Source: a virus. Taken from it: a stretch of 28,078 nt of DNA. Made by a program: the position numbers and the translations under genes. The notes under the pieces are model-generated. The model was not told the origin of the DNA. It ran no database searches and was given only the letters and a program-made list of their open reading frames with translations. This document shows, piece after piece, positions 2,867-19,853 of this stretch. The stretch lies in IMG/VR virus record IMGVR_UViG_3300043444_000406, positions 1-28,078 of that record. One strand, 5' to 3'. The number at the start of each line of letters is the position of its first letter. Within the stretch, counting starts at the first letter, position 1.

Positions 2867-5713
2867 GTGGCAGTTGTAGGTGAGGCGCATATTGTCGTCA
2901 AGGCAATTACCACGGGCGTCGCCGAAGAAATCCAAAGGGCAATTGCCTCCGCCTCTTCTAACGTTCGTAAAGAAGGGCAGAAACTAGGGGAAAGCTTCTC
3001 TGACGGTTTTAAGCGCGGTAGCTCTCGCGGTAAAAACCCCTTCAAAAAGCTATTCGATGCCGACGCCGCTGAAAAAGCGCGCCAGCAATTTGCTCGCCTC
3101 CAAAAAGGTGGAATGTCGGTTCAAACCGCAATCGGTACACTGGCAGGCTCAATCGGCTCATTAGTCGTATCACTGGGAGCTCTTATTGGCTCCGCGGGTG
3201 GAGCTGCCGCATCCCTAGTCGCTGTGGGCGGTGCTGCCATCGGCGCTGGTATCGGCATGAAGCTTGCTGGTATGGCGTTGGGCGGCGTAACTGGTCCTAT
3301 GAAGCAGGTCGGTAAAGCTGCTGGCGGTACCAAGAAAACCATTGCTGAACTTCGTGAAGAGATGCAGCAGCTGCGTTTTGACGCCGAAGAAGCGGCTCTT
3401 TCCGAAAAAGAAGCTGCGTTAAACCTTGAAAAAGCTCGTGAAAACTTGGCACGAGTTCAAGACTTGCCGCCAAACTCGATGGCCCGCCGTGAAGCTGAGC
3501 TGGCATATCAGCAGGCAGACCTTTCGCTACGTCGCGCAATTGACCGCAACAACGACCTTCAAGAAGAAATTCAAAACGGACCTAAGAAGGCAGCGGGCGC
3601 TGCTGGCACTGACCCCTACGCTGGTCTGACTAAAAGCCAAAAAGACTTTGCAAAAACGCTTGTAGAACTCAAGCCTAAATTTGATGACCTAAAAGAAGCC
3701 GTCGCGAGTGGGTTCCTCCCCATCCTCGGCGACCAGATTGACACCCTATTCGGTGACAACTACCCGACGCTTCTCCGCATGTTTACGGGAATGGGAGCTG
3801 CGCTCGGAGATGCCACCGAGAAGGTATTCGGGTTTGTTAACAGTTCCGAAGGCATGCGACTTTTTGAGACACTTTTTAAAAACTCTGAGGGTGTTGTCCG
3901 AGACCTAGGTGATGTACTGGCTGGAGCCTTGCAGGCAGCTCTAAAACTTCTAGAAGCTGCGGCTCCAATTACTGAAGAGTTCACTGGCTGGTTGGTAGAT
4001 AGCCTAGATACTTTTAACAAGTTTCTAGATAAGTCCAAAGGCAACGGAGAGTTAGCAGAGTTCTTCACAAACTCGGCCAATGCCGCTAAGCGTTTCGGTG
4101 ACATCTTTGGAAACATCTTCTCTGGATTCGGCGCACTAATAAGTGATTCGGTAAAGCCGGGTTCTGGTGGCGACGACTTACTAAAGTGGCTCACCACCGC
4201 CACCTCGGGTTTTGCAAACATGGGCAAGGACCCCGGTTTTTCCGAGTTTATGGATAAGTCCACCGCAAACGCCATCAAGATGTTTGATGCTCTTGGTGAC
4301 ATTATCGGCATCATTGTTGGGATGGCGGATGACCCAGCGGTCGGGCAGTTTTGGGACACCATCGCGGGAGCTGCTGACCCGCTAAAGCGACTACTAGAGA
4401 ACGGTGCTGCCGCGGGCGATGAGATGGCTGGACTAATTGTCTCGCTCACCGAAGTTGCCGCTGCTTTTGGTGACCAGGGGCAGCTAGAAGCATTCTTTGG
4501 TACCCTTCGCGATATTGCAAAGACTGTTGCAGACTTCTTGAATCAGGAGCAAGTCAAACAGTTCCTCAACTTCCTCGGCCCAGTTGTCGGTACTATGTTG
4601 GCGTTTGGAACCGCGATTAAGTTAAGCAGCTTCTACTTTAAAGCTCTGCTTGGAACATTCAACATGTTCGCAGCCCCGTTTAAGTTCTTCTTTGCTAAAG
4701 ACGCCGCGACTGGCTTAACTAAGTTTGGCGGAATGCTTAAGAGTGTCAAGAGCGGCCTCGAGACAATTGCACTAAAGGCGATGTATGCGAAAGATGCAAT
4801 TGTCAAAGGTTTCAACATTGCAAAAACTGGTGCCATAAATCTAGCCAAGGGCATTGGTAGTGTAACAAAAGCACTAGTTCTTCAAGGTATCGAAATTGCC
4901 AAGAACATCGGAAAATGGATTGCCCAGAAAGCCGCGGTTGTAGCATCTACCATCGCCCAAACCGCGATGAGAATAGCTACCGCGATTGCTACTGGAGTTC
5001 AGGCAGCCTTCAACGCCGTGATGGCCCTAAACCCGATTTACCTAATCGTTGCTGGTGTTCTGGCTCTTGTTGCGGCTCTCGTCTGGTTCTTTACTCAGAC
5101 TGAGCTAGGCCAAGAAATCTGGGCAAACTTCACTGCCTTCCTAGCAGAGGCGTGGAACAACATTGTTAACTTCTTTGTTGATACTTGGAACGGTTTTGTT
5201 ACAATGTTCCAAACTGCTGTAGGCGCGATTGGAGAGTTCTTCGGTAATGCCTTCCGCGTTGTTGGGGATATATTCAGAGGCTACATCAACTTCTGGATTG
5301 GCCTAGTTGAAGGCTTTGTTAACTTCTTTATTCGCGGCATCAACATGATTATCGACGCTCTAGGCACACTGAGAATGGATATTCCCGACTGGGTACCGCT
5401 GGTCGGTGGACAGACGTGGGGTATTAACATTCCCCGTATTCCAGAACTTCGTCTACCTCGTCTAGCCGAGGGTGGTGTGGTTATGCCATCCGCTGGCGGA
5501 ACCATTGCTCAAATTGCGGAGGCTGGTCGTCCAGAGCGTGTTGAACCTCTTGACGAAAACGGTATGTCGAAGCGTGACAAAGAACTTATGAAACAGATGG
5601 GTAGCGGAGTAAACATCACTGTCAACCCATCCGCTGGTATGGATGAAACTGAGCTTGCACACACTGTATCTAGATTGCTCGCGTTCCAGATGCGAGCTGG
5701 AGGCGCATACTAA
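2867..5713 (+). CDS. Tape measure protein
   Basis: A protein of 948 residues with a GTG start behind the excellent RBS GAGGAGGTGA (2853-2862). Tape measure proteins set tail length and occupy the tail lumen. At the usual ~0.15 nm per residue this predicts a tail of about 140 nm. A basic N-terminus is followed by a Gly/Ala hydrophobic stretch at ~88-142 (SIGSLVVSLGALIGSAGG), a charged coiled coil at ~156-236 (KEAALNLEKARENLARVQ), long amphipathic helices, and a second hydrophobic segment near 723-745 (IYLIVAGVLALVAALVWFF) that could enter the host membrane. The C-terminus has the frequent LAEGGVVMPSAGG pattern. No lysozyme or peptidase motif is evident. It follows the chaperones directly, and its stop overlaps the next start. 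Confidence 0.95.
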   Translation: MAVVGEAHIVVKAITTGVAEEIQRAIASASSNVRKEGQKLGESFSDGFKRGSSRGKNPFKKLFDADAAEKARQQFARLQKGGMSVQTAIGTLAGSIGSLVVSLGALIGSAGGAAASLVAVGGAAIGAGIGMKLAGMALGGVTGPMKQVGKAAGGTKKTIAELREEMQQLRFDAEEAALSEKEAALNLEKARENLARVQDLPPNSMARREAELAYQQADLSLRRAIDRNNDLQEEIQNGPKKAAGAAGTDPYAGLTKSQKDFAKTLVELKPKFDDLKEAVASGFLPILGDQIDTLFGDNYPTLLRMFTGMGAALGDATEKVFGFVNSSEGMRLFETLFKNSEGVVRDLGDVLAGALQAALKLLEAAAPITEEFTGWLVDSLDTFNKFLDKSKGNGELAEFFTNSANAAKRFGDIFGNIFSGFGALISDSVKPGSGGDDLLKWLTTATSGFANMGKDPGFSEFMDKSTANAIKMFDALGDIIGIIVGMADDPAVGQFWDTIAGAADPLKRLLENGAAAGDEMAGLIVSLTEVAAAFGDQGQLEAFFGTLRDIAKTVADFLNQEQVKQFLNFLGPVVGTMLAFGTAIKLSSFYFKALLGTFNMFAAPFKFFFAKDAATGLTKFGGMLKSVKSGLETIALKAMYAKDAIVKGFNIAKTGAINLAKGIGSVTKALVLQGIEIAKNIGKWIAQKAAVVASTIAQTAMRIATAIATGVQAAFNAVMALNPIYLIVAGVLALVAALVWFFTQTELGQEIWANFTAFLAEAWNNIVNFFVDTWNGFVTMFQTAVGAIGEFFGNAFRVVGDIFRGYINFWIGLVEGFVNFFIRGINMIIDALGTLRMDIPDWVPLVGGQTWGINIPRIPELRLPRLAEGGVVMPSAGGTIAQIAEAGRPERVEPLDENGMSKRDKELMKQMGSGVNITVNPSAGMDETELAHTVSRLLAFQMRAGGAY

Positions 5714-8700
5714 TGACGATTAACCAAGGACAAGAGAATGCAATTCTCAATAAAGCCCTATCGCCTGTACCGTTCCCGCACCTAACTGGTGCTGAACTAA
5801 ATGCGGACATCGTCCTCGGCACACGTACGTTCAACACTATCGACGCCAATAATGTTGCTTGGATTCTTACAGACATTCAAGGATGGCTAACTACCCCAGA
5901 ACCAGAGTTTCCAGAGGTGTCTCGTGGTATCCAAGGTGACGGTGACTATGACGTCGACGGTCGTTACAAGGCTCGTATTATTACCCTTGCTGGCTCACTC
6001 CTAGTTCCCGACCGAACCTACATCCCCGCCGCCCAGCAGGACCTGATTGATGTCGTGGACCTAGTCCGTCGAGGTGTATGGCTTAAGTTCTTGGAGAACC
6101 CTACTCGCGCCGTCTTTGTACGCCTCAGTGGACAACCTCAGATTCAAACAATGAACCCTAGGGGTCGAATCGACTTCTCTATCGGTCTTAAGGCCGCTGA
6201 CCCTCTAAAGTATGAATGGAACGAAGACCGCTCAGACGGATACTTCTTAGCCAACGTAAAGGCTAGCAACTATGACGGTAGCGAGACTGGAGCGGTTTCG
6301 ATTACCAATAATGGAAACTACGATGTTTCGGCTATCTATGAAATCACTGGACCCATTATCGGTCCCGGAGCAAGCATCTTTAACAACGCAAACTCTGACC
6401 TTATTGAGTTTGCTCAGCCATTACGTCCCGCTAGAAACTTAACTGTTAGCAATAAATCAATGACTAATGGGGTTGTAACACTAACCCTAAACACGGTCAG
6501 TGACCTTCAGGCTGGTGACGAGCTTATGCCGCGCTTCGTGGAATCTCGCACCGTAAGCCAAGCAACCCGCACTAGTGGAAGCTCTCTAGTTACCATCACA
6601 ACGTCGGGCGGTCACGGTTTCTCTACTGGCGATACTGTGGTTTTGTCGGGGGTCAACTCGGACATCAACGGCACCGAGTACTCTATCACTCGCGTAAATA
6701 CGACAGCCTTTACATTTACCAGCGGCGCTACAACTGCCATCAGCAACACCACAGGTACGGCTTTCAACATCACCAACGACCGCTACAACGGCACGTTCAC
6801 ACTTGACAGCGTAGACTCGACAAACAATAAAGTCACATACACGACCATCTACAACGAAACGTACGCAAGCGCTACGGCGTTTTCCGCTGTTGCCTATCGC
6901 TCTCCAGACGTACTTGAGATTGACACCTACTCTCAAGAAGTTGCCCTAAACGGTGAGACCTATCAGCAGCGCTCAAAGCTGGCAACTCTGGTTGATTGGA
7001 TGAAGCTTAAGTCTGGGGCTAACGAAATCACGCTGGACGACAGTAACCAAGAGCCTATTTATGTTTACAAGGTTTCTCAGACCAACACGACAGCGACCCT
7101 AACCACTGCCACCGAGCACGGCTTTAACGTCACTGACGTTGTTCTTGTGGACAATGTCCCCGCACTCTCCAACAGCTACGACACCGCTGTTCGTCAAGCA
7201 ATCACTTCCTACAGCCAGAGCGGTACAGCAGTCACTCTAAATGTGACGGGGCACGGCTACTCGGCTGGCGACTTGGTTGTCATCTCTGGTGTAGACGCTG
7301 AAACTATTGATGGCGAGTATACAATCGCCACGGTAGCAACAAACTCGTTCACGGTTACATCAGCCTCTTCAGCTACTACATATACGACATCGTTGCCCAC
7401 TGGCTCCGCCTATGTCAAAAAGATTCTCAAGATTAGTCACTACAGCCGTTCAAGTTTTGCAGCCTACATCTACACCACAACTACTCACGGTTTATCTGTC
7501 GGAGATTACGTAGATGTGTTCGGCGTACCGTCTGGATTTGATGGTTTTGATGGTCTTCAGCAGATTGTGGCAGTGGACTCTGGGACTAACCTAATCACTC
7601 TATCTACGAGAACAGAAGCAACCGTTGCAAACACTAACGTCACTGGCGGAACTATAACCAAGCGATTCCCGATTACTGCGGTTACTCCGTACTCTTTCAG
7701 TTACGTCAACGGTGGGACAACCAACGTCAGCACCACCACTGTTAGCGCGCTGGTGTCGTCAGAAGATATTTACTCCACCCCCAGCTCCATTACCAAAGAT
7801 ACCAACGTCGTTACAGTGGTAACTACTCGTCCGCATGGCTACACTGCTAACAACTTAGTTCAGGTTGAAAACGTGGGTGCTGGATTCAATGTTGGTACTG
7901 GTGACCCAGTAGCTATCGCCAACGTTTCACGAAGTGGAACTACAGTCACCGTGAGAACCGCGGCGGCTCACTCGCTTATCGCCAATGACATAGTTCAGGT
8001 TTACGGAACATCGGTCACCGAAACTGACGTCTCCCTGAACGGAACTTACTCAGTTTTGGCAACCTCTAACAACACGCACTTTACATATACAACTCAAGAC
8101 ACTGGCACTGTTGCTACGCAGACGCAGGAGCGAGCCTTTGCCGCAAAGAAAGTACGTGTTGCGTACTACACAAAGAACGCCAGCACTAGCAACGCCTACA
8201 GTACTACCGCAGGTAACGTGGTTTGGTTCTACACAAAAACTAACCACGGTCTCGCCACTGGCGACTCTGTCTATGTCGAGAACCTGAGTTCGTCGCTAAA
8301 TGGGCTGCAGGGGACTGTCACCAACGTTAACGCGACATTCTTCCGAGTGGTATCAAACAATATCTCTCTTGTAACGACTGCAAACATTACTTCGGCAGCA
8401 GGAGGTTTTAGCGGAAATATGGTCCGTCTGAGGTTCGATGCACCGCATGGTCTATCTCGTGATGACTCAATTTGGGTAAACAGCAACACCAATTCAAGTA
8501 TCAATGGACCGAAGACCGTTGCTTTTATTTATGATGCAACCGCTATCGAGTTCGACAACGGCACAACAGCGACTGGAACTCTTAATAACACCACTAGAGG
8601 TAAGGTAGGTCGACACTACGAAACTTCTTCCGTAGCTCGCGCATACCCAATCACCAACGTAATTAACACCACAGCATTTACGTACTTCAGCCAAGAAGCC

Positions 8701-8817
8701 CCTGCAACCAACGCCACAAACCAGATAAACGGTACAACTTCTAATGCTGCTGGTGAGGTTGTCCTCAACGGTGACGGTAGAATGAGTGTATATTACCGCT
8801 CTGGTTGGATAGCTTAA
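5713..8817 (+). CDS. Distal tail protein (Dit-like) with inserted beta modules
   Basis: A protein of 1034 residues; start and stop overlap as TAATG. Residues 1-170 match the N-terminal ring part of siphovirus distal tail proteins (GDYDVDGRYKARIITLAGSL, RRGVWLKFLENPTRAVFVRL, RIDFSIGLKAADPLKYEW). The second Dit domain (galectin-like in known structures) is split: NGNYDVSAIYEITGPI at ~200-215, IDTYSQEVALNG and WMKLKSGANEITLDDS at ~403-444, and the last strand GRMSVYYRSGWIA at 1022-1034. Between these lie insertions at ~241-398 and ~446-1020 holding eight copies of a module with the signature HG(F/Y/L)SxGD. Usual Dit length is about 250-300 residues, so most of this chain is inserted. Dit forms the hexameric hub joining tail tube and tip; the modules would project outward. 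Confidence 0.85.
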   Translation: MTINQGQENAILNKALSPVPFPHLTGAELNADIVLGTRTFNTIDANNVAWILTDIQGWLTTPEPEFPEVSRGIQGDGDYDVDGRYKARIITLAGSLLVPDRTYIPAAQQDLIDVVDLVRRGVWLKFLENPTRAVFVRLSGQPQIQTMNPRGRIDFSIGLKAADPLKYEWNEDRSDGYFLANVKASNYDGSETGAVSITNNGNYDVSAIYEITGPIIGPGASIFNNANSDLIEFAQPLRPARNLTVSNKSMTNGVVTLTLNTVSDLQAGDELMPRFVESRTVSQATRTSGSSLVTITTSGGHGFSTGDTVVLSGVNSDINGTEYSITRVNTTAFTFTSGATTAISNTTGTAFNITNDRYNGTFTLDSVDSTNNKVTYTTIYNETYASATAFSAVAYRSPDVLEIDTYSQEVALNGETYQQRSKLATLVDWMKLKSGANEITLDDSNQEPIYVYKVSQTNTTATLTTATEHGFNVTDVVLVDNVPALSNSYDTAVRQAITSYSQSGTAVTLNVTGHGYSAGDLVVISGVDAETIDGEYTIATVATNSFTVTSASSATTYTTSLPTGSAYVKKILKISHYSRSSFAAYIYTTTTHGLSVGDYVDVFGVPSGFDGFDGLQQIVAVDSGTNLITLSTRTEATVANTNVTGGTITKRFPITAVTPYSFSYVNGGTTNVSTTTVSALVSSEDIYSTPSSITKDTNVVTVVTTRPHGYTANNLVQVENVGAGFNVGTGDPVAIANVSRSGTTVTVRTAAAHSLIANDIVQVYGTSVTETDVSLNGTYSVLATSNNTHFTYTTQDTGTVATQTQERAFAAKKVRVAYYTKNASTSNAYSTTAGNVVWFYTKTNHGLATGDSVYVENLSSSLNGLQGTVTNVNATFFRVVSNNISLVTTANITSAAGGFSGNMVRLRFDAPHGLSRDDSIWVNSNTNSSINGPKTVAFIYDATAIEFDNGTTATGTLNNTTRGKVGRHYETSSVARAYPITNVINTTAFTYFSQEAPATNATNQINGTTSNAAGEVVLNGDGRMSVYYRSGWIA
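6433..6906 (+). repeat. Inserted beta module, first Dit loop
   Basis: Residues ~241-398 of the distal tail protein contain one clear module (GHGFSTGDTVVLSGVNSDING, His at residue 301, then YSITRVNTTAFTFTS) plus a second beta segment without the signature. It separates the Dit strand ending RPARNL from the strand VLEIDTYSQEVALNG. Confidence 0.7.
7048..8772 (+). repeat. Array of seven beta modules, second Dit loop
   Basis: Residues ~446-1020 carry seven modules, seen as EHGFNVTD (469), GHGYSAGD (514), THGLSVGD (592), PHGYTANN (708), AHSLIAND (753), NHGLATGD (845) and PHGLSRDD (912). Each is preceded by a T/V-rich strand and followed by a V-x-V/I strand, often an NG turn, then a T-x-F-x-(F/V) strand. 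The copies are diverged at DNA level, so this is an old array. The pattern resembles what databases often label E1 FCCH-like domains in phage tail proteins. Confidence 0.75.
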
Positions 8818-8826
8818 GGATTCTAA

Positions 8827-11145
8827 ATGACTGACTTATTGACGCCTAAATATCAGTTTATGGTGACGGACCTTGTTACCAACCGAGTCCTAGGGCAACT
8901 CCCTATTGATGGGGCATCATATACCAAAGCTATCCGCGGTGCTGGCGCTTTTTCTGGTGCCATCAAGGACCCGAACGCTCTAGCTCAAAGTGACATCTAC
9001 CGCAACACTATGCCGGGTCGAACTGGGCTGTATATCCTCAGGGACGGCGAGTGTGTTTGGGGTGGAATTCTTTGGTCCCGCAACTACAGCGCAAACAGTA
9101 AAACTTTGGAACTAAGCGGAGCAGAGTTTCCTAGCTACTTTTATCACCGCAAACTGTGGCGTACTTTTAACACGGTTATCGGCGGAACGCTTGTGGTTCC
9201 GACTTCAGGTGATGCCTACGTCCAGCTCGAGACTGGAAACTACTACAACTTCTTTGAGGGTCAGGCGGTTAAGGTTATGTTTACTGACGCCTCCCTCAGT
9301 AACTTGAATGGTTATTTCAACATTCTCGCCAACCCGGGCAGGGACTTTTTCTATGTGGATGCGTCGGAACGGTTCTACCGATTAAAGACCCGCAAAATTA
9401 CCAAATATGACACTAAAGACTCCGCTTCTGCCAGCAGCGCCACAGTAGAGTTTGTGACCAAAACTAGCCACACCTTCCAAAAAGGTGACCTAATCACCCT
9501 CAAAGGCACTGGAAACGCTCGAATGAACGGCACCAAAGAGGTTAAATCTACCCCCAACTCGACCACTTTTACTGCCGTAGTTCCCGCGTGGGCAGGATTT
9601 AAAAAACAAAAAAAGAAGGTCGTCACGCTAGCTAATGGGTCATACGCATCTATTAATGGGTCCATACCGCCCGGAACATATTCGGTATCAATCGACGTAA
9701 CTGCCAGCACTTATCGTTATGTGAAACAGTTGCTAGAAGCGATGGCGATAGATTTTGATGGAAGCGTGTTCCCGAACACCGCTATCGAACCGGGGACCGA
9801 TAAGGTTCTCGACATTGAGACCTATGAATGCGATGAAGATGGCTATGCCATCCTCACGACATCCACGGGGCACGAACTTGCTCCGGGTCAACGAGTGGTT
9901 ATTCGCAACGTTCGTAAAGACTTTAACGGCGAGCATACCGTTTCAGAAGTTGTTGACGACAACACCTTTAAATACTTTATTGGCTCCAACCCATTCTCTG
10001 AAAGCACTATTGACATCAAAAAATATACAGTCAATAGGAAAAAGGTAGTCAACAAAACAATTACATACACAACCACCGCCGCCCACGGGCTTAGCGTGGG
10101 TGACTCAATCACTATCACTGGGGTTCCTGCGGAGAAAGAGACTTATACCGAGGGCGGTAAGGAAAAAACCGCAACGCACGTCTACGACGGAGCCTATTTG
10201 GTTACAGTAGTGCCGACCACTACAACGTTCCAAGTTGATACCACCATTGTATTCAAGAACACAAAGACTGTAGCGGAAAAGGTTTTATCTTCGGGAACTA
10301 TCTATTCTTACCCAGAAGTGGTTGTTAAAACTTATGGCTCATTCACGGCTAACTCCGACATCGGTATAACTTTTAACGACGACGACGAAGATTTAGATAT
10401 CACCAAGGTTCCGACTCAGGTTCGAGGACATGAACTTTTAACGGTTGGAGAATACTTAGACCGCTTCTCAGATAGCTCTGGTGGCTTCGACTATAGAGTC
10501 GACTGCGCGTACGACTCTGAAACGAACTCTTTCACGAGAACATTTAGATTCATACCCGTTCTTCCAGCCTACGAATCAACCATTGATATCCAAACCAAAA
10601 TCCAGCTTCTAGGGGCGGACAAGTTGGTCTTTGAATACCCCGGAAACATCAGTGAAGTTTCAATGAGCGAATCAGCTGAAAATGCCGCAAACCGATTCTT
10701 TATGATTGGAAACAAAGAAGGTCTCGATAGCGAGGCGTCTCAGCCCTACTCGGCAGCCGTATCAGATGGATTCGACACAACCGACTTCCCGCTACTAGAT
10801 GCAAGTGCCTCTGATGACCAGAACGCCGACATTGACATTCTTTATCTGGGGGCTAAGCGATACGTCAATGAGGCTAGACCGCCAGTATCAGATATCGGTC
10901 TAACAATTAACGGGTCACTAACCCCCAAAGTTAATGAGTATATGCCGGGTGACTGGTGTACACTTATTATAGATGACCCATTCATTGCGCTGCGTCTAGC
11001 TAGTGACTCTGAGGCTCGAGACGACTTATTGATTAGAAAAATCAATAGCATCTCGGTGCAGGTAAATGAGGGTTCTACATTCCCTGAGGTTGTTACCTTA
11101 GACCTAGTGACAGAGTATGAAGTTGATACAGGAGAGTTTAACTAA
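8827..11145 (+). CDS. Minor tail protein, tail-tip hub (gp27-like), with inserted modules
   Basis: A protein of 772 residues with AAGGAT as RBS. The N-terminal ~115 residues follow the hub pattern of actinophage minor tail proteins (YQFMVTDLVTNRVLGQLP, then GAGAFSGAIKDPN, TGLYILRDGECVWGGILWSR). The second half of the hub is recognisable at ~525-620 (HELLTVGEYLDRFSD, LVFEYPGNISEVSMSESAEN) and continues to the end (NEYMPGDWCTLIIDDPF). Hub proteins close the tail tube under the distal tail ring and carry the receptor-binding parts. Residues ~128-475 hold four beta modules related to those in the distal tail protein, including AAHGLSVGDSITITGV at 418-433. The usual length of this family without insertions is roughly 400-600 residues. 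Its stop overlaps the next start (TAATG). Confidence 0.8.
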   Translation: MTDLLTPKYQFMVTDLVTNRVLGQLPIDGASYTKAIRGAGAFSGAIKDPNALAQSDIYRNTMPGRTGLYILRDGECVWGGILWSRNYSANSKTLELSGAEFPSYFYHRKLWRTFNTVIGGTLVVPTSGDAYVQLETGNYYNFFEGQAVKVMFTDASLSNLNGYFNILANPGRDFFYVDASERFYRLKTRKITKYDTKDSASASSATVEFVTKTSHTFQKGDLITLKGTGNARMNGTKEVKSTPNSTTFTAVVPAWAGFKKQKKKVVTLANGSYASINGSIPPGTYSVSIDVTASTYRYVKQLLEAMAIDFDGSVFPNTAIEPGTDKVLDIETYECDEDGYAILTTSTGHELAPGQRVVIRNVRKDFNGEHTVSEVVDDNTFKYFIGSNPFSESTIDIKKYTVNRKKVVNKTITYTTTAAHGLSVGDSITITGVPAEKETYTEGGKEKTATHVYDGAYLVTVVPTTTTFQVDTTIVFKNTKTVAEKVLSSGTIYSYPEVVVKTYGSFTANSDIGITFNDDDEDLDITKVPTQVRGHELLTVGEYLDRFSDSSGGFDYRVDCAYDSETNSFTRTFRFIPVLPAYESTIDIQTKIQLLGADKLVFEYPGNISEVSMSESAENAANRFFMIGNKEGLDSEASQPYSAAVSDGFDTTDFPLLDASASDDQNADIDILYLGAKRYVNEARPPVSDIGLTINGSLTPKVNEYMPGDWCTLIIDDPFIALRLASDSEARDDLLIRKINSISVQVNEGSTFPEVVTLDLVTEYEVDTGEFN
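9208..10251 (+). repeat. Four beta modules inserted in the hub protein
   Basis: Residues ~128-475 of the hub protein contain modules at ~128-180 (weak signature, NGYFNILANPGRDFFYV), ~205-255 (SHTFQKGDLITLKG), ~335-387 (GHELAPGQRVVIRNV) and ~405-475 (AHGLSVGDSITITGV). They are related in pattern to the arrays in the neighbouring genes. A Lys-rich piece (FKKQKKKVVTL) separates the second from the third. Confidence 0.7.
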
Positions 11146-14100
11146 TGCCTAGTAAGAGACTACGCAGTAAACGAACTATTGCCGCGGCTGTAACCAACCT
11201 ATCCTCCTCCGTAACACGAGTCGAGCAGGTCAGCGTTCCATACCAAATCTCTCCGCTGGCGTTGTCTGGGGATGCTTTTGACCAAGACGCCATCAAAACT
11301 GATGCGATTGCTAGTGGAGCCATTAGCTCCAAAACCCTCGGCCTTTCCGCTTACGTCCCTAACGGAGAAGGTACGCAGCGTGTACCTGCCCCGCTAAATG
11401 ACATCGAGTATTGGGAAGACGTTGTTGAGGGCCTCATCGAGCTTCACCGCAGCGGTATCCACGATAACGAGGACATCCAAAACGTAACTGTTACCACAGA
11501 GGGTTTGGTATTCACCCCCACTGGTTATGACGCTGACACGGACACATACGGAGATGCTCGAATCTATTTGACTGGACGACTTCCTATGCCTCGCAGTGGG
11601 GTTATCTACGCCACATGGAAGAGCACCGCTACTATCCCCATCAAGCTGATTTGGTGGACTGCTACAACTCCAGTCAAGGTCTCTAAAGCATCAATTGCCA
11701 GCAGTGTAGTTACGTTCACAACTGCGTCGGCACACGGCTTCTCTGTCGGTCAAGAAGTAAAGGTTACTGGTTGCGGCAGCACTTTTAACGGAATCTACAC
11801 TGTAGTTTCAAATGCTGGCGCTGAAGGTGAAACAACTGTATTCACCGCCGCCGCCAACTCGGTTGCTCCAGCCGACGTGAACGAAACAGTATTTGCTATC
11901 GAGGGCCTAGTTGCATTAGAAGAGCATGAGTATGTCAATTTAGAAAATAAGATTTCTTGGCGAGCTCCAGACACTGCTGGCGAATATGCAGTCTACGCAG
12001 AACTTCCATATGACTCCACCGAGCGCACTCTGACAGACGCCAAAGTCTTTGAAACAATCGGGTCTGGTAAATCGATAGTTGTCGCATCTAACGTCAACAA
12101 CTACTCCATCACATCGAATGTGATTACCTACACTACCGCTACAGACCACGAGTTCACGGCAGACGACATTATCTCTGTCGGGTACAGCCCAGAGGAAGTC
12201 TCCGCCGCATCCTCGGCACAGGTTTCGGCTGGTTCACCGAATGTATTGACCGTAAGGTTCTCTTCTGCCCACAAGTTCCATGTTGGATATGAAGTACTTC
12301 TAGACTTGTCGGCTACTCCGCTCAACGGAACATACACGGTTTCTGCCATCCCTAACACGACGGCAATCAACCTACTGACCACAATAAACACCACGGCTAA
12401 CACGGCTGTAACGGGCAATGTTACCGCCACCACCTCGCCACTCAGCGGGCAAGGAAAAATCACAAGCACCACGGCGAATACGTTCACAGTCGCAAGAACT
12501 AACCTACAAGACGTTTCTTCGACATCGATTTCGAACACACTGGCTCAGGTGGGCCGTCCTAGGTATTCTTACATAACCTACGCAGCGACTAACACTTCTG
12601 CCAACACTATTGAAATTTACACCGAGAGCCCTCACGGGTTTGAGGTCGCAGAGCCCATTGCGATTTCGGGACTCCCTTCAGAGACATTTCCTGGAGTTGA
12701 CGGTCAATACACTATTGCTGCAGCCACTGATAGATTCTTTAGAATTGACAACGCCAATGTGTCTACAACAGTCTCGTCAACAGCAATAACCGCTAAGCAA
12801 GCTCTGGCCTTTACGGGAAGTAGTGACTTCAACGTTGAGCTCAGCCCTGAGGGATTCAAGTTTACTGGCTCAGGTGACGCCTCCGTAGGGTCAGACCTAA
12901 GAACAACAGCGGATAACTTCCTGACACTGAGCCGAATCGATGGTCAGGTGCTAGCCACGATTGACAATCAGGGTGTCGGCACATTCTCGGAAGTTGCTAT
13001 CAACGACGCTCAGATTTCTGGTTACGGGCTAGTAGGAACGATTCTCAGCGACACATACAACGACAACGCCTATGGAGTCGTTGAGTATTCTGGAGACATT
13101 TTAAATCGCTTTGCTAGAGGGAATGTTTACAAGGGGTACTTCTACATCCCAAACAACACGGCTATCACTACCAAGTATGCAACTTTGGCATATGGAAGAT
13201 TTACTCTCAGCGAAAATCGTTCGTATCTTATTACTGCAGCATTCGGCGGTCTTCGAGGTACAGCATCGACTAACGCCGTAGTAGAACTTCTGATGAGCAC
13301 CGAGCCCTTCCAAGCAGATGCCGTTGGGCCTAGAAGGATGGCTAGTACTCTGGCTACCAGCGTGTACAGCGAGTTCACGCCGCTGATTGGTACCTTCTAC
13401 ACAGAGGCAGCGTCACCAGCCGAGGCAAGTGTTTCTATCTCTTCAATCTCTAGGTCGACCACTACCGTAACCGTTGTGACGTCTACCGCTCATGGATTGC
13501 TGGCTAATGATTATGTAGGAGTCTCTGGAACCACGAACACCCTCCTAGAGGGAACGTTCCTAGTAGCGACGGTAGTCAACACTGTGGCATTCACCTATAG
13601 CACAGAGACTACGGGGACAATCACATCACTGACGACAGGCACGGTGAGAAAGGTAAGCTCTCTTCTCAGTAGTGCTGGAGTGTTGCCTGCAGGACTGCCA
13701 ATCTACTGGTTGCTTAGACTTCGTCACGCAGCGGCTCCTACCTCATACTCACTGGGCTACACTTCCCTGCCGCTTACCGAGCCTCAGATGGAACTAACGG
13801 TTATTGACATTGGCGATTCGCGCTCGGGGCTGGGCGTTGACGCCAGCAAGGTGAACAGCAGCACTGGTCTGCTAGAGTTATCACCTGACAGTGGTAGTGG
13901 TGGTGGAACATCTACTTACACCGCAACCGAGACTGTGGCCGCTTCAAGCTCTGCCTACTATGACAACTACGGTAAGGGGTCAGGTACAAGTGACCCATAC
14001 GCTTACAAGTATTCGTTGTATCAGGGGAACCCAGGGACTGCGTCTGGAACCAAGAAGTCAGCCGTAGTGTTCCCTGCATTTGCAGGTCCGCCAGCTGGTG

Positions 14101-14471
14101 CTACAAACGTTACCGTCACCAAGGTTGAGGTCTATCTACGCAACCGTCACTCATACAATTCAAGCGGTCTTACCACAAAAATTGGTGTCCACAATAGCTC
14201 GTCCTTGGGGAGCTCTGTGCCAGCTGGTGTTAGTGGTATCACCTCAACGTCTACTACCTTCAGTAAGGGTCAAGGCAAGTGGGTCACTCTAAGCTCAACC
14301 ACACATGCTGGCTTTGCCCCAGACGGTTCCCAGTCGCATAGGGGAATCCTAATTAGCCTGACGTCACCTACTGGAACTTACGACTCCACACTATCTAACT
14401 ATGGCTATTTTGACGGAAATACGATGTCAGATGAGCCGCAACTTAGAATCACCTACACCTACGACTTATAA
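11145..14471 (+). CDS. Large minor tail protein, probable receptor-binding protein
   Basis: A protein of 1108 residues, coupled to the previous gene by TAATG. The N-terminus is basic and helical (MPSKRLRSKRTIAAAVTNL) and probably docks on the tail tip. Beta-module copies occur at ~183-240, 315-350, 362-425, 480-540 and 765-822. A beta-rich domain spans ~560-900 (AYGRFTLSENRSYLITAAFG, LPIYWLLRLRHAA). A Ser/Gly linker (SPDSGSGGGTSTY, ~913-925) leads to a C-terminal ~185-residue domain (VTKVEVYLRNRHSYNSSG, then GILISLTSPTGTYDSTLSNY, ending EPQLRITYTYDL). This domain resembles C-terminal beta-sandwich domains of mycobacteriophage minor tail proteins thought to bind cell-surface sugars. It is the last large tail gene, a usual site for host-range determinants. 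The receptor-binding role is inference. Confidence 0.72.
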   Translation: MPSKRLRSKRTIAAAVTNLSSSVTRVEQVSVPYQISPLALSGDAFDQDAIKTDAIASGAISSKTLGLSAYVPNGEGTQRVPAPLNDIEYWEDVVEGLIELHRSGIHDNEDIQNVTVTTEGLVFTPTGYDADTDTYGDARIYLTGRLPMPRSGVIYATWKSTATIPIKLIWWTATTPVKVSKASIASSVVTFTTASAHGFSVGQEVKVTGCGSTFNGIYTVVSNAGAEGETTVFTAAANSVAPADVNETVFAIEGLVALEEHEYVNLENKISWRAPDTAGEYAVYAELPYDSTERTLTDAKVFETIGSGKSIVVASNVNNYSITSNVITYTTATDHEFTADDIISVGYSPEEVSAASSAQVSAGSPNVLTVRFSSAHKFHVGYEVLLDLSATPLNGTYTVSAIPNTTAINLLTTINTTANTAVTGNVTATTSPLSGQGKITSTTANTFTVARTNLQDVSSTSISNTLAQVGRPRYSYITYAATNTSANTIEIYTESPHGFEVAEPIAISGLPSETFPGVDGQYTIAAATDRFFRIDNANVSTTVSSTAITAKQALAFTGSSDFNVELSPEGFKFTGSGDASVGSDLRTTADNFLTLSRIDGQVLATIDNQGVGTFSEVAINDAQISGYGLVGTILSDTYNDNAYGVVEYSGDILNRFARGNVYKGYFYIPNNTAITTKYATLAYGRFTLSENRSYLITAAFGGLRGTASTNAVVELLMSTEPFQADAVGPRRMASTLATSVYSEFTPLIGTFYTEAASPAEASVSISSISRSTTTVTVVTSTAHGLLANDYVGVSGTTNTLLEGTFLVATVVNTVAFTYSTETTGTITSLTTGTVRKVSSLLSSAGVLPAGLPIYWLLRLRHAAAPTSYSLGYTSLPLTEPQMELTVIDIGDSRSGLGVDASKVNSSTGLLELSPDSGSGGGTSTYTATETVAASSSAYYDNYGKGSGTSDPYAYKYSLYQGNPGTASGTKKSAVVFPAFAGPPAGATNVTVTKVEVYLRNRHSYNSSGLTTKIGVHNSSSLGSSVPAGVSGITSTSTTFSKGQGKWVTLSSTTHAGFAPDGSQSHRGILISLTSPTGTYDSTLSNYGYFDGNTMSDEPQLRITYTYDL
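11691..12779 (+). repeat. Four beta modules in the receptor-binding-type protein
   Basis: The signatures are AHGFSVGQEVKVTG (His at residue 197), DHEFTADDIISVG (335), AHKFHVGYEVLLD (376) and PHGFEVAEPIAISG (497), each with flanking T/V-rich strands. Residues ~245-300 between the first and second copies (LEEHEYVNLENKISW, AGEYAVYAELPYD) belong to the host domain, so the modules interrupt it. Confidence 0.7.
13437..13649 (+). repeat. Single beta module splitting the ~560-900 domain
   Basis: Residues ~765-835 form one clear module (TTVTVVTSTAHGLLANDYVG, then VVNTVAFTYST). It interrupts the beta-rich domain between TPLIGTFYTEA and LPAGLPIYWLLRLRH. Confidence 0.7.
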
Positions 14472-15670: not shown

Positions 15671-17488
15671 ATGACAAACGGACTAGAAAACGTTCAACTT
15701 GAACTGGTGGACAGCGTAGCGAAGGCTCAGGAGCTTATCTCTTGGCTTGGCGAGCGCCGCCCGTTCAACGCTATCGCTATTGATACGGAAACTGGAGAGC
15801 TTCCAGGTAAACCGAAAGACCACGCTTTTTCACCATGGCACGGAAAGCTTCGCCTCGTTCAGGTCGGAGACGGTCAGCGCGGTTGGTCTATCCCGTGGGA
15901 CCAGTGGTCTGGTGTTTTCTACGAGGCGATGAACAAGTTTGACGGTCCAATCGTCTGTCACAACGTCGCCTTCGAAGCGAAGTGGTTTGAGATTCAGTCG
16001 GAATGGTCTATTCCTTGGCACAAGACTCACGACACCATGATTATGTCGCGCATCATTGACCCTCTAGGTTCGGCGGCACTAAAGAATCTAACGTCTAAGT
16101 ATGTAGACCCCAAGGCTGCCGCTCTTCAAGCGCACCTCGACCAGTCCATGCACGAGAACGGGTGGACGTGGGGTACTGTTCCTACCAACTTCCAACCGTA
16201 TTGGGCTTATGGCGCTTTGGACACCGTTCTAACAATGCGTCTATTCGAGCAGTTCTGGGATAAGACTGGCCCCGGAAAGATTTACAGCATCCCTTACGAA
16301 CTGGAGATGGCTGCTCGAAAGATTGCTACCCGCATGGAGCTCAACGGCGTTCGTGTAGACCTCGAGTACTCCAAGAAAAAGCTTGACGAGCTAACATCTT
16401 ATGGAGAGTCGGTCCGCCAGTGGGGTCAAGACACCTACGGCATCTCCATCACAAGCAACCTGCAGCTAGTTAATCTGCTGGAGAAGCTTGGTGCCGAGAT
16501 TACCGAAACGACTCCGTCGGGACAGAAGTCTGCGTCCAAGGACCAGATGAAGATGCTCCTAATCAATGGAAACCCTGAAGTTCAGCAGCTCGCTGACGTT
16601 GTCCTAAAGCAGCGTAAGGCAGACAAGTTGGCAAGCACCTACTTCAGCAACTTCCTATCTGACAACATCGACGGGTTCCTACACCCGACCATCAACACAT
16701 TGCAGGCTCGCACTGGACGTATGTCTATTACCAACCCCGCGCTGCAGACCCTGCCTAAGGGTGACGACACTGTCCGTCGTGCGTTCTTGCCTAAGGATGA
16801 AGACCACGTAATCGTGACTTCTGACCTTGACCAAGTCGAGTTCCGTATGTTCTCCTCGCTGTCTCAGGACGAGAACCTAATCAACCTATTCAACATGGCA
16901 GATGCTACTGGCTCTGACCCGTTCACCGAGATTGGTCGTGAGATTTACCAAGACCCGACAATGCAAAAGTCTGACAAGCGCCGTGGTCTAATCAAGGGTG
17001 TAGTTTATGGACGTCTGTACGGTGCGGGTGTTGCTAAGCAGGCTCTTACTGCTGGAGTTCCTAAGGAACAGATGCAGGCTGTGTCCGACGCATTTGACCA
17101 GCGTTTTCCGGGAATGACCTTGTTCCAGAAGAAAGTTGAAGATGTCGGTATGAGACGACTTCGCTCCGAAGGACGTGGTTATGTCAACACTTGGACGGGA
17201 CGTCGAATCCCTTGTGACGAAGACCGCGTCTACACGCTAGTCAATTACCTCATTCAGGGTGGGGCGGCTGAAATCTTCAAGTCGAACCTAGTCAAGCTGG
17301 ACCAAGCGGACCTGACTGACTTGCTGATTGTTCCAGTACATGACGAAATCGTTCTCAACGCTCCACGCAAGGACGCGGAAGAGATTAAGCAACTCGTTCG
17401 TCAATGTATGACCACGACCGAAGGCTGGGCTGTCCCTCTGACGGCAGATGCCGACGGACCTCTTGAGACATGGGGAGACAAGTACTAA
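15671..17488 (+). CDS. polA: DNA polymerase I (family A) with 3'-5' exonuclease domain
   Basis: A protein of 605 residues, phage-length, with no 5' nuclease domain. Exonuclease: DTE at 38-40, the Exo II motif HNVAFE at 97-102 and the Exo III motif Y180-x3-D184 (DEDDy type). Polymerase motif A is DLDQVEFR at 385-392 with the conserved Glu390. Motif B is R438-x3-K442-x3-Y446-x3-Y450. Motif C is VHDE at 556-559. Residue 446 aligns with Phe762 of E. coli Pol I and is Tyr, as in T7. Exo II has Glu102 where Asp is usual. This is the replicative polymerase of the phage; recombination genes follow. The stop overlaps the next start (TAATG). Confidence 0.96.
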   Translation: MTNGLENVQLELVDSVAKAQELISWLGERRPFNAIAIDTETGELPGKPKDHAFSPWHGKLRLVQVGDGQRGWSIPWDQWSGVFYEAMNKFDGPIVCHNVAFEAKWFEIQSEWSIPWHKTHDTMIMSRIIDPLGSAALKNLTSKYVDPKAAALQAHLDQSMHENGWTWGTVPTNFQPYWAYGALDTVLTMRLFEQFWDKTGPGKIYSIPYELEMAARKIATRMELNGVRVDLEYSKKKLDELTSYGESVRQWGQDTYGISITSNLQLVNLLEKLGAEITETTPSGQKSASKDQMKMLLINGNPEVQQLADVVLKQRKADKLASTYFSNFLSDNIDGFLHPTINTLQARTGRMSITNPALQTLPKGDDTVRRAFLPKDEDHVIVTSDLDQVEFRMFSSLSQDENLINLFNMADATGSDPFTEIGREIYQDPTMQKSDKRRGLIKGVVYGRLYGAGVAKQALTAGVPKEQMQAVSDAFDQRFPGMTLFQKKVEDVGMRRLRSEGRGYVNTWTGRRIPCDEDRVYTLVNYLIQGGAAEIFKSNLVKLDQADLTDLLIVPVHDEIVLNAPRKDAEEIKQLVRQCMTTTEGWAVPLTADADGPLETWGDKY

Positions 17489-17958
17489 TGACTAGACACA
17501 TTCTTTCAGTAGACCCTGGAAAGGCGACAGGCATGTCGTACTTTGTGTGGGAGAGTCCTGACGTTGAGCCAGTAATGGTTTGGTCTGGTGAATACCAGCA
17601 AGAGGAGTATGCTGCCCCGATTCGGGACGCACTTCTCACCTGCCAGCTTCTTGGTGTAACTTTGGAAGTTGTTTGCGAACGATTCACAATCAACGCTCAG
17701 ACGGTTAGGAACTCTCAGGCTCCATACTCGCTAGAGCAGATTGGCATCCTCAAGCAATGTCTAATGGATGTCGGTAGGGCTCCTGACGACATCTACTTCC
17801 AATCCCCAGCCGACGCTAAAGCAATGTTTGATAACGCAAAGCTGAAGAAACTTGGTTATTGGCACGTTGGCGGTGAAGGACACGCGCTTGACAGCATCCG
17901 ACACGGTTTGCTAAGATTGGTAAAAAGCGGCTGGAAACCTCTAGCACTGCTAACATAA
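17488..17958 (+). CDS. RuvC-like Holliday junction resolvase / RNase H-fold nuclease
   Basis: The preferred start is the ATG at 17488, which overlaps the polymerase stop as TAATG with GGGGAGA upstream and gives 156 residues. An ATG at 17470 would lie inside polA. The RNase H-fold acidic residues fall in RuvC order: Asp9 in ILSVDPGKATGMSYF, Glu64 in LEVVCERF, and GHALDSIRHGLL with His132 and Asp135. RuvC-type enzymes cut four-way or branched DNA, needed to resolve recombination and replication intermediates before packaging. Phage versions at this length are common in actinophages beside polA and helicase genes. The fold is fairly sure; the exact substrate is not. Confidence 0.8.
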   Translation: MTRHILSVDPGKATGMSYFVWESPDVEPVMVWSGEYQQEEYAAPIRDALLTCQLLGVTLEVVCERFTINAQTVRNSQAPYSLEQIGILKQCLMDVGRAPDDIYFQSPADAKAMFDNAKLKKLGYWHVGGEGHALDSIRHGLLRLVKSGWKPLALLT

Positions 17959-18041
17959 TTTCAGAGATACTATCAAAAAATTTAAATAAAAAACTAAAAT
18001 CTGTGATAGTATGTAGACATAAAGACGAAAGGATGGCTTAA
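17959..18041 (+). promoter_or_regulatory. AT-rich promoter/operator region with 9-base dyad
   Basis: The 83-base gap is strikingly AT-rich. A perfect 9-base inverted repeat has arms ATACTATCA (17967-17975) and TGATAGTAT (18004-18012). Between them lies TAAAAT (17995-18000), five of six to the -10 consensus; no good -35 is seen. The arms would cover the -35 region and the transcription start, a typical operator layout. AAAGGA (18027-18032) is the RBS of the helicase gene. Confidence 0.45.
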
Positions 18042-19853
18042 ATGCCTGTAAATGTTGACCTCGACGATGCGAGGACACATATCATTATCGGTGCCGATTG
18101 GCGCTTCAAGGAGTTGTGCAAGAGTATTCCCGGTGCAACTTACGACGGAAAAACCCAGCTGTGGAAGGTCCCAGTTTCTTGGTCCTCTTGCCTCGCACTG
18201 CGCTCGACTTTCCGTGACGACCTAGTTCTAGGTGACAGCCTCAAGCAATGGGCCGCTGACGAGCGCGCTAACCGAATCGACCCAGCCAATGCACTGCGCG
18301 AGGCTGAGACCCTGCCAGACGGCGAGGGGGATGAAGATTTGTTTCCGCACCAGCGTGCTGGTGTGAAGTTCTTGGCGACCGCCAAGCGCGCACTTCTTGC
18401 TGACGAGCCCGGGCTTGGGAAGACCGCTCAGGCTATCCGTGCAATTAAAAAGATTCAGGACGACGGTGGAGAAGCTTTCCCTGCTCTGATTGTCTGCCCT
18501 AACACTTTGAAGAACAACTGGAAACGCGAGTTCGAGAAGTGGTGGCCGGGAGTAAAGGTTCAGGTCATCAAGGGCAGTGCGACTCAGCGTCGTAAGCAGT
18601 TTGAAGAAGAGGCCGACGTCTATGTTGTCAACTGGGAGTCGCTACGTTCACACTCGCGCCTTGCTCCTTATGGTGCAGTGGCATTGGCTCGCTGTCCTGA
18701 GTGTAAGGGACACGACCCTAAGATTACTGAGGCACGTTGCGAAGTCCACGAGCGTGAGTTGAACCGCATCGACTTCAAGGCTGTTGTGGCTGACGAGATT
18801 CACCGTTCAAAGGACCCGAAGTCTAAGCAGACTCGCGCACTGTGGGCTGCTACTGGCAATGCTGATGTTCGATTTGCATTGACTGGTACTCCTGTCGCCA
18901 ACAACGTTCTCGACATGTGGTCCATTCTGCACTGGATTAGCCCAGAGGACTGGCCTTCAAAGACTCGCTGGATTGACCGCATGGTAAACACCATGCTCAA
19001 CGCTTTCGGTGGCATGATGGTCTTGGGTCTAAAGCCACACATGGAGGAAGAGTTCCACGCAACTGTCAATCCTCGTATGCGTCGTATGCTCAAGCAGCGC
19101 GTGTTGCCTTGGCTACCTGAGATGATGTTCGAGCGTCGCGACGTAGAGATGTCAGCGAAGCAGGCAAAAGCCTACAAGGACATGCGTGACAACATGATTG
19201 CAGAACTCGAGGGTGATGGCAGTGCTGTCGTAGCTCCGTCGGTTCTAACTCAGACTACTCGCCTCAATCAGTTTGCCAGCTCTTTCGCTCAGACTGTTAT
19301 TGATGAAGTCACAGGTGAAGAGAAAATTGTTTTGTCAGAGCCCTCTTGTAAGATTGATGCTCTAATGGACGACATCAAAAATGGAGACTTCGGTGACGAC
19401 TCAGTGGCAGTAGCCGCTGTGTCTAGCCAGCTAATCAACTTGCTCAGCGCACGCTTCACCAAGGAGGGTATCGCTCACGGATTGATTACTGGTGCTCAGT
19501 CAGAAGACGAGCGCACCAAGGCTATTGATGATTTCCAGTCTGGACGCACCAAGTGGATTCTGTTCACCGTTCAGGCTGGTGGTGTGGGTGTTACCCTGAC
19601 CACTGGTCGTCGTCTGGTTATGCTTCAGCGTCCGTGGTCTCTTGTTGACCACAAGCAGGCGCTTGACCGTATCCACCGCATTGGTTCAGAGATTCACGAC
19701 TCGGTTATCATCATGGACTACGTGACCGAGGGAACCATTGAGGAACGAGTTATTCAGGTCTTGGAAACCAAGGCTGAAAACTTTGAACAAATTGTCCACG
19801 ACAAGGCACGTCTGCTCGACTTGCTAAAAGAAGACAAGGCTGGTAAGCTCTAA
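18042..19853 (+). CDS. SNF2-family DNA helicase/translocase
   Basis: A protein of 603 residues. N-terminal ~95 residues (GATYDGKTQLWKVPVSW) resemble the small substrate-recognition domain found before the motor in SMARCAL1/HARP-like proteins. Motor motifs: LFPHQRAGVKF (~100-110), Walker A DEPGLGKT 121-128, DEIH 251-254 in place of DEAH, TGTP 281-284, QAGGVGVTLT 511-520 and motif VI QALDRIHRIGSE 539-550. A possible zinc site (C218, C221, C233, H236) is inserted just before motif II. Family members remodel branched or annealed DNA using ATP, for example fork regression. In phages they sit, as here, beside Cas4-like nuclease, Sak4 and SSB genes. Its own upstream region suggests separate regulation. 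Confidence 0.92.
   Translation: MPVNVDLDDARTHIIIGADWRFKELCKSIPGATYDGKTQLWKVPVSWSSCLALRSTFRDDLVLGDSLKQWAADERANRIDPANALREAETLPDGEGDEDLFPHQRAGVKFLATAKRALLADEPGLGKTAQAIRAIKKIQDDGGEAFPALIVCPNTLKNNWKREFEKWWPGVKVQVIKGSATQRRKQFEEEADVYVVNWESLRSHSRLAPYGAVALARCPECKGHDPKITEARCEVHERELNRIDFKAVVADEIHRSKDPKSKQTRALWAATGNADVRFALTGTPVANNVLDMWSILHWISPEDWPSKTRWIDRMVNTMLNAFGGMMVLGLKPHMEEEFHATVNPRMRRMLKQRVLPWLPEMMFERRDVEMSAKQAKAYKDMRDNMIAELEGDGSAVVAPSVLTQTTRLNQFASSFAQTVIDEVTGEEKIVLSEPSCKIDALMDDIKNGDFGDDSVAVAAVSSQLINLLSARFTKEGIAHGLITGAQSEDERTKAIDDFQSGRTKWILFTVQAGGVGVTLTTGRRLVMLQRPWSLVDHKQALDRIHRIGSEIHDSVIIMDYVTEGTIEERVIQVLETKAENFEQIVHDKARLLDLLKEDKAGKL

Follow-up and report, generated by a model that had tools for sequence, protein, structure and literature searches.

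The window (the whole 28 kb stretch of DNA analysed here, from an IMG/VR virus record) carries its tail genes on the plus strand in the usual order of tape measure, distal tail protein (Dit), hub and receptor-binding type, the tape measure gene being recognised by PHROG matches. Directly 3' of the tape measure gene lies the Dit gene (5713..8817), whose 1034 amino acid product contains nine copies of a beta module in two insertion sites. It is followed by the gene of a hub-like minor tail protein in the Tal position (8827..11145; 772 amino acids). Its match to PHROG 1885 (minor tail protein, 104.9 bits) and the gene order suggest the hub role, and an alignment of hubs found no match among PDB sequences. 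The third tail-tip protein (11145..14471; 1108 amino acids) is probably of the receptor-binding type (RBP-like), given its position after the hub. Relatives with different middle regions retain 46-56% identity in the C-terminal part of this third protein (13932-14468, about residues 930-1108), a conserved end domain that has no Pfam or PHROG match. After the tail genes, on the same strand, positions 15671-19853 hold genes for a family A DNA polymerase and an SNF2-type helicase.

The closest named relatives of the window phage are Actinomycetia phage DSL-LC01, Microbacterium phages and Streptomyces phages. As these are actinobacteriophages, their similarity makes an actinobacterial host likely. 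Prophages gave no host assignment, since the hub alignment had no relatives in 84,980 scanned genomes of bacteria and archaea. For comparison, relatives were fetched from IMG/VR, comprising 92 complete Dits and 94 complete hubs.

Copies, fold and identity of the module

A first-pass annotation of this DNA had proposed that one module recurs about 17 times across the three adjacent tail-tip proteins, with eight copies in Dit, about four in the hub and five in the third protein. A profile built from 10 seed copies from the three proteins and then iterated returns 16 copies at E<=1e-4. Dit accounts for 8 of them, the hub for 3 and the third protein for 5. One marginal extra hub copy appears at residues 134-171 (E 0.042), and a six-frame scan of the window yields no further significant copy outside the three proteins. 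When trained on Dit only (leave-one-protein-out), the profile still detects the hub copies at 19-23 bits and three RBP-like copies at 21-28 bits, compared with a best score of 6.5 bits among 900 shuffled proteins of the same composition. Thus, a profile of one protein detects the copies in the other two at scores beyond the shuffled controls, which bears out the proposal of a shared module, and the coordinates and genes given for it are correct. Three of the 16 copies are N-terminal halves only (Dit 455-487, Dit 697-729 and RBP-like 321-345), with matching C-terminal halves downstream, past intervening whole modules. Dit also has a ninth module that had been missed, whose two halves lie on either side of the first. 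The three proteins together contain about 17-18 modules.

In the hub, the modules are H1 (residues 190-262; 9394..9612; 34.9 bits), H2 (326-395; 9802..10011; 51.5 bits) and H3 (398-480; 10018..10266; 43.7 bits), the last with a long beta3-beta4 loop, preceded by the marginal, diverged possible module H0 (134-180; 9226..9366). The three contiguous RBP-like modules that stand outside any other are R1 (174-250; 11664..11894; 47.1 bits), R4 (474-550; 12564..12794; 30.1 bits) and R5 (760-835; 13422..13649; 32.9 bits).

The module is a barrel of about 75 residues and six strands, of the E1 FCCH and endosialidase-barrel type. An AlphaFold model of one window copy, made with 94 other copies as alignment, has six strands and a pLDDT of 90.3. 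When this model is compared with known structures by VIA-align, the FCCH domains of human UBA1 and UBA6 rank first (UBA1: Z 10.9, rmsd 1.9, 76 of 79 residues), followed by the phi92 endosialidase (4hiz; Z 10.4, 29% identity), EndoNF (3gvj; Z 9.6) and riboflavin synthase-type barrels (Z 7.5). The module profile also matches the endosialidase barrel by sequence (4hiz, E 3e-5; 1v0e, E 0.0027), and in BFVD the fold is present in baseplate, fibre and tailspike proteins. Pfam E1_FCCH (PF16190, cut-off 29.5 bits) matches Dit above the cut-off at 45.9 bits, and the hub (24.8 bits) and RBP-like protein (11.9 bits) below it. End_beta_barrel (PF12195) scores 21.1 bits, below its cut-off of 35, and an NCBIfam search gave no matches. 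The earlier label 'E1 FCCH-like' therefore agrees with both the Pfam score of Dit and the strong fold match, and structure prediction for the modelled copy gave the fold that this label implies. Chance resemblance among low-complexity strands can be dismissed with practical certainty, as the modules are indeed rich in T, S, V and N, yet shuffled proteins of the same composition fail to match and structure prediction gives one common fold. Profile matches to TAL effectors in the PDB (E down to 4e-8) were rejected as an artefact, because these values add up many 14-residue matches to 'aHGLtp.qvV.I', each stretch falling short of significance by itself.

Like the E1_FCCH domain, the module has a six-stranded barrel, an HGF..GD..V signature and an NG turn. 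That family belongs to ubiquitin-activating E1 enzymes, whereas the window modules are located at the tail tip, in many copies, some of them nested. Because the carrier is an SPP1-type Dit in which no adenylation domain was found, the module is an FCCH-like domain and its carrier not an E1. The End_beta_barrel of the phage K1F and phi92 endosialidases shares with the module its fold and its occurrence in a phage adhesion protein, and a loop region of the module is equivalent to that of the sialic-acid-contacting serines of EndoNF, but the endosialidase barrel is a single one within a tailspike. The T1-type tail tube and FCWL1 head-tail proteins (PDB 9l0f, 9jlf; residues 17-97) share the FCCH barrel as well (Z 8.6-9.2).

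In a module tree of five related phages, copies cluster mainly by position and not by genome, though with weak resolution; the tree separates positional orthologues but not their deep order, and its cross-protein groupings are unreliable because of long branches. The closest cross-protein pair, Dit module D6 and R5, has 49% identity, with no match at the DNA level. Both the positional clustering and this low identity support the expansion being old, as had been suggested. Dating the duplications from DNA repeats between modules was abandoned, the modules being too diverged.

Insertion sites and split modules in the distal tail protein

The full-length Dit model (pLDDT 70.5) aligns by VIA-align with SPP1 Dit (2x8k) at Z 16.3 over 230 amino acids, spanning model residues 28..1033. 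Because the match reaches residue 1033, the last strand of the Dit core must lie beyond all modules. This strand, YYRSGWIA (8779..8814), is included in the structural match and corresponds to the conserved end of the 20-21 amino acid tails of module-free sites. Pfam PF22768 scores 23.5 bits on the window Dit, below its cut-off of 25, compared with 32.1 bits on the module-free relative L062. Another structural match is the Bxb1 distal tail protein (Z 13.7, VIA-align), which, like that of Corndog, is an actinobacteriophage protein enlarged by extra domains (9d93; PMC13252515). Corndog has one inserted Rossmann-like domain and Bxb1 has CTE-like extra domains, but, unlike for the window Dit, no FCCH barrels or recursion are described in the accessible part of that source (PMC13252515).

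Both insertion sites are in the C-terminal half of the Dit core and are empty in relatives. The tail that follows the conserved NxIxFxD strand at site 2 has 20-21 residues in most relatives, 103-109 with one whole module in L005, L007 and L010, and 591 in the window. The 92 complete Dits form a ladder of lengths, from 306-327 amino acids with no module and 379-407 with one, to 775 with six, 861-878 with seven and 1103-1301 with eight or nine. Some Dits of 469-565 amino acids owe their length to an N-terminal CBM-like domain and not to modules. In one relative (L035:4758-6947), the N-terminal CBM-like region has two complete modules within it, so modules may also insert into another type of domain. 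At least two modules are found in each of the 94 complete hubs, and most third proteins have none.

In a split module, the first three strands precede, and the last three follow, one or more whole modules placed in the beta3-beta4 loop. At site 1, a profile of 43 single-module Dits matches the window Dit in two pieces. Residues 231-270 fit its positions 3-42 (23.6 bits), residues 355-413 fit positions 49-104 (31.5 bits), and a complete second copy stands between them at 274-349 (31.8 bits). In four relatives, the profile is likewise split around a whole module. Since the profile splits around a complete copy, one whole module appears to be lodged in the beta3-beta4 loop of another. The outer module, D0, thus has its N-half at residues 236-275 (6418..6537) and its C-half at 355-396 (6775..6900), and the nested D1 occupies residues 277-354 (6541..6774; 45.8 bits; own model pLDDT 90.3). 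In the full-length Dit model, D1 matches E1 FCCH at Z 9.7 and endosialidase at Z 9.6 (VIA-align).

At site 2, a profile from the three one-module relatives is again split, with positions 1-54 at window residues 427-480 (32.7 bits) and 73-122 at 979-1033 (11.0 bits, and 18.9 in relative L002), some 500 residues lying between the pieces. The N-half of D2, the first module of the site (447-487; 7051..7173; 24.7 bits with an N-half profile made without window sequences), coincides with the first piece of the site-2 profile and is followed by the complete modules D3 (493-562; 7189..7398; 34.1 bits) and D4 (567-644; 7411..7644; 38.9 bits) and then by the D2 C-half (645-685; 7645..7767), which is weak alone (3.9-4.9 bits; 7.2 bits for its counterpart in L002) and has three predicted strands. 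The N-half of D5 (688-724; 7774..7884; 19.8 bits, N-half profile) is followed by the complete modules D6 (728-806; 7894..8130; 35.2 bits), which is nearest to R5, D7 (818-886; 8164..8370; 37.2 bits) and D8 (887-967; 8371..8613; 27.0 bits), and the D5 C-half (974-1018; 8632..8766) coincides with the second piece of the site-2 profile. The RBP-like protein contains one comparable case, in which the R2 N-half (312-348; 12078..12188; 16.9 bits, N-half profile) and C-half (433-470; 12441..12554) enclose the complete module R3 (353-425; 12201..12419; 36.0 bits).

N-half profiles trained without the window recover the unpaired N-halves at residues 457 and 697 of Dit and 323 of the RBP-like protein. 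Past the intervening modules, C-halves score 9.1 bits in the RBP-like protein and 14.2 bits in relative L022, against a maximum of 8.2 bits in 1000 shuffles; the site-2 C-halves of the window Dit reach just 2.5-6.5 bits with the C-half profile, near noise. The predicted strands of the Dit model agree with the layout, with three before and three after each insertion. The halves were paired on sequence order, strand prediction and orthologous sites, which strongly support a nested topology, written in brackets as (()) (()()) (()()()) for the nine modules of Dit and () (()) () () for the RBP-like protein. A D2 N-half joined to the D5 C-half is the disfavoured alternative, prompted by L005, L007 and L010, which have one module at this site; the non-crossing arrangement, in which each of D2 and D5 would keep its own halves, needs one duplication plus insertions and is preferred, short of proof. 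In a set of 294 diverse contiguous modules, hardly any position other than one in the beta3-beta4 loop varies in length; the mean number of inserted residues is 1.38 there (at least three in 21% of the modules) and at most 0.18 elsewhere.

The term evolved Dit is used for Dit proteins with inserted carbohydrate-binding modules (PMC10688798, PMC6669499). Like those of lactococcal and other Gram-positive siphophages, the window Dit combines an SPP1-type core with insertions in its C-terminal half (PMC10688798, PMC6669499). Unlike them, its insert is of the FCCH type, occurs in 0-9 copies with modules within modules, and is shared with the hub and RBP-like protein; additionally, the Dit of some relatives is on two genes. 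The nested FCCH-type Dit is a new form of evolved Dit. A search of the literature on phage E1 FCCH and nested tail domains, with most subscription papers outside its reach, found no earlier description.

Arrays of half-modules in Microbacterium phages

In the Microbacterium phages Pumpernickel, Zooman, Big4, A3Wally and Cece, the gene at the Dit position encodes successive N-halves at intervals of about 36 residues and, after them, a few C-halves. The next gene encodes FN3-like repeats, then five C-halves, then the last strand of Dit, ending in FRSGWAG, YRSGWAG and similar sequences. In six relatives (L172, L174, L176, L177, L178 and L179), Dit appears divided in this way between two adjacent genes, the second of which encodes 744-979 amino acids with other domains first and is annotated in the isolates as a minor tail protein. 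Automatic counts of site-2 halves per gene pair give seven N-halves and seven C-halves in Pumpernickel and eight of each in Big4 and A3Wally. Zooman has seven of each, with one weak match in the FN3 region left out, and Cece has eight N-halves and seven C-halves, the eighth C-half being truncated at the gene end. The metagenomic L172 pair has seven N-halves and six C-halves; the arrays of L172 and L154 balance only with hand-read halves and were given less weight. The isolate hubs similarly contain five or six N-halves, then four to six C-halves. No C-half stands before an N-half in any of these cases, an order with a chance of 1 in 3432 for seven plus seven tokens, although kinship among the phages (about 40-85% identity) means that their patterns do not count as independent. 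The orthologous site between beta3 and beta4 is empty in Zooman and Pumpernickel and holds one whole module in Big4, A3Wally and Cece.

These arrays bear on the alternative that each half-module is a three-stranded repeat in its own right or pairs with the half next to it. The regular spacing of about 36 amino acids between N-halves in several phages fits this alternative, as do the long continuous predicted strands that cross half-module borders in the window Dit. It is nevertheless improbable, since C-halves follow in equal or near-equal numbers in every fully read case and the same module occurs whole and split at orthologous sites. The recursive reading, judged reasonably probable, is that nests reach six to eight barrels in depth as out-and-back arms, and that in some phages two Dit polypeptides would fold together, so that five barrels and the Dit core are completed in trans.

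The hubs of L005, L007, L010 and L012 are of about double length (1546-1592 amino acids). The added material aligns into the loops of the hub modules, and its halves are diverged; modules are possibly nested in these hubs too. In Cece (L176:581-1621), the major tail protein has one module at residues 238-283, which at 74 bits is the highest score seen, and the module would therefore also be present on the tail tube.

Proposed arms, adhesion and glycan binding

The evidence on balance favours, with somewhat less assurance than the deep nests themselves, a mechanism in which recursive loop insertion gives Dit and hub adhesive arms that run out and back, some of whose loops may bind glycans. On this reading, the module has multiplied in all three proteins (Dit, hub and receptor-binding type), partly as tandem copies and partly as whole modules set into the beta3-beta4 loops of others. 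Each nested insertion would attach one more barrel to its parent through two crossings of the chain, which would run out via the N-halves and back via the C-halves. As the modules lie within one another's beta3-beta4 loop, they would probably form arms rather than surface beads, a feature that the earlier description of a decoration studding the tail tip overlooks. In other siphophages, the tail tip has six Dits and three hubs; on this stoichiometry, six Dits and three hubs would bear stiff arms of adjustable length, set by nesting depth. The arms would reach the cell envelope with adhesion surfaces at the tip, in the form of variable loops, FN3 or CBM domains, and some loops may bind envelope or capsule glycans.

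Such a mechanism would provide a rule for the enlargement of siphophage tail tips, in which one barrel with one permissive loop is repeatedly inserted, suggesting a stiff scaffold of tunable length. Nesting accounts for odd half-motifs that annotation divides or overlooks. It predicts that Dit and hub bear long arms and that cultured Microbacterium phages encode their distal tail protein in two genes. It also offers a testable lead on what 'E1 FCCH' means where phage proteins commonly carry this label.

Glycan binding by the barrels themselves is a plausible but tentative proposal, drawn from homology. Among phage homologues whose ligand is known, the endosialidase beta-barrel is the nearest, and in EndoNF it has a polysialic-acid site that includes S460 and S468 (PMC12632334). 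By numbering from alignments, these serines flank the loop equivalent to the beta3-beta4 loop of the module. As the E1 FCCH sequence has the HG..GD signature too, this motif marks the fold and not a ligand, and no ligand-contact residue is conserved among the modules. The fold in itself does not imply glycan binding, because it is also used for E1 protein contacts, the T1-type tail tube and head-tail proteins.

A purely structural role, in which the modules are spacers or stabilisers comparable to Ig or FN3 domains, bind nothing and leave receptor specificity to other domains, is rather unlikely, though it is the better of the two remaining alternatives. It would fit the signature shared with eukaryotic E1 FCCH, the occurrence of this fold in tail tube proteins of the T1 type and head-tail proteins of FCWL1, the module in the Cece major tail protein and the 12 complete short Dit relatives that lack any module. 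However, length variation is nearly all in the loop bracketed by the EndoNF serines of the polysialic-acid site (PMC12632334), and the ladder of 0-9 copies suggests selection on number. A little less likely again is a decoration of independent tandem copies, in which many weak sites give avidity to capsule or envelope sugars. The homology to the endosialidase barrel with its published polysialic-acid site (PMC12632334) and the tandem module arrays in L064 and L067 point in this direction, but independent beads leave the half-modules and their balanced N/C order unexplained, and the lack of conserved ligand-contact residues also counts against them. The arm-building mechanism and the bead alternative share one further observation. 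An N-terminal CBM_4_9 domain above the Pfam cut-off, which the window Dit lacks, occurs in two sister Dits (L043:5312-6964 and L022:4062-6944) and is consistent with adhesion to sugars.
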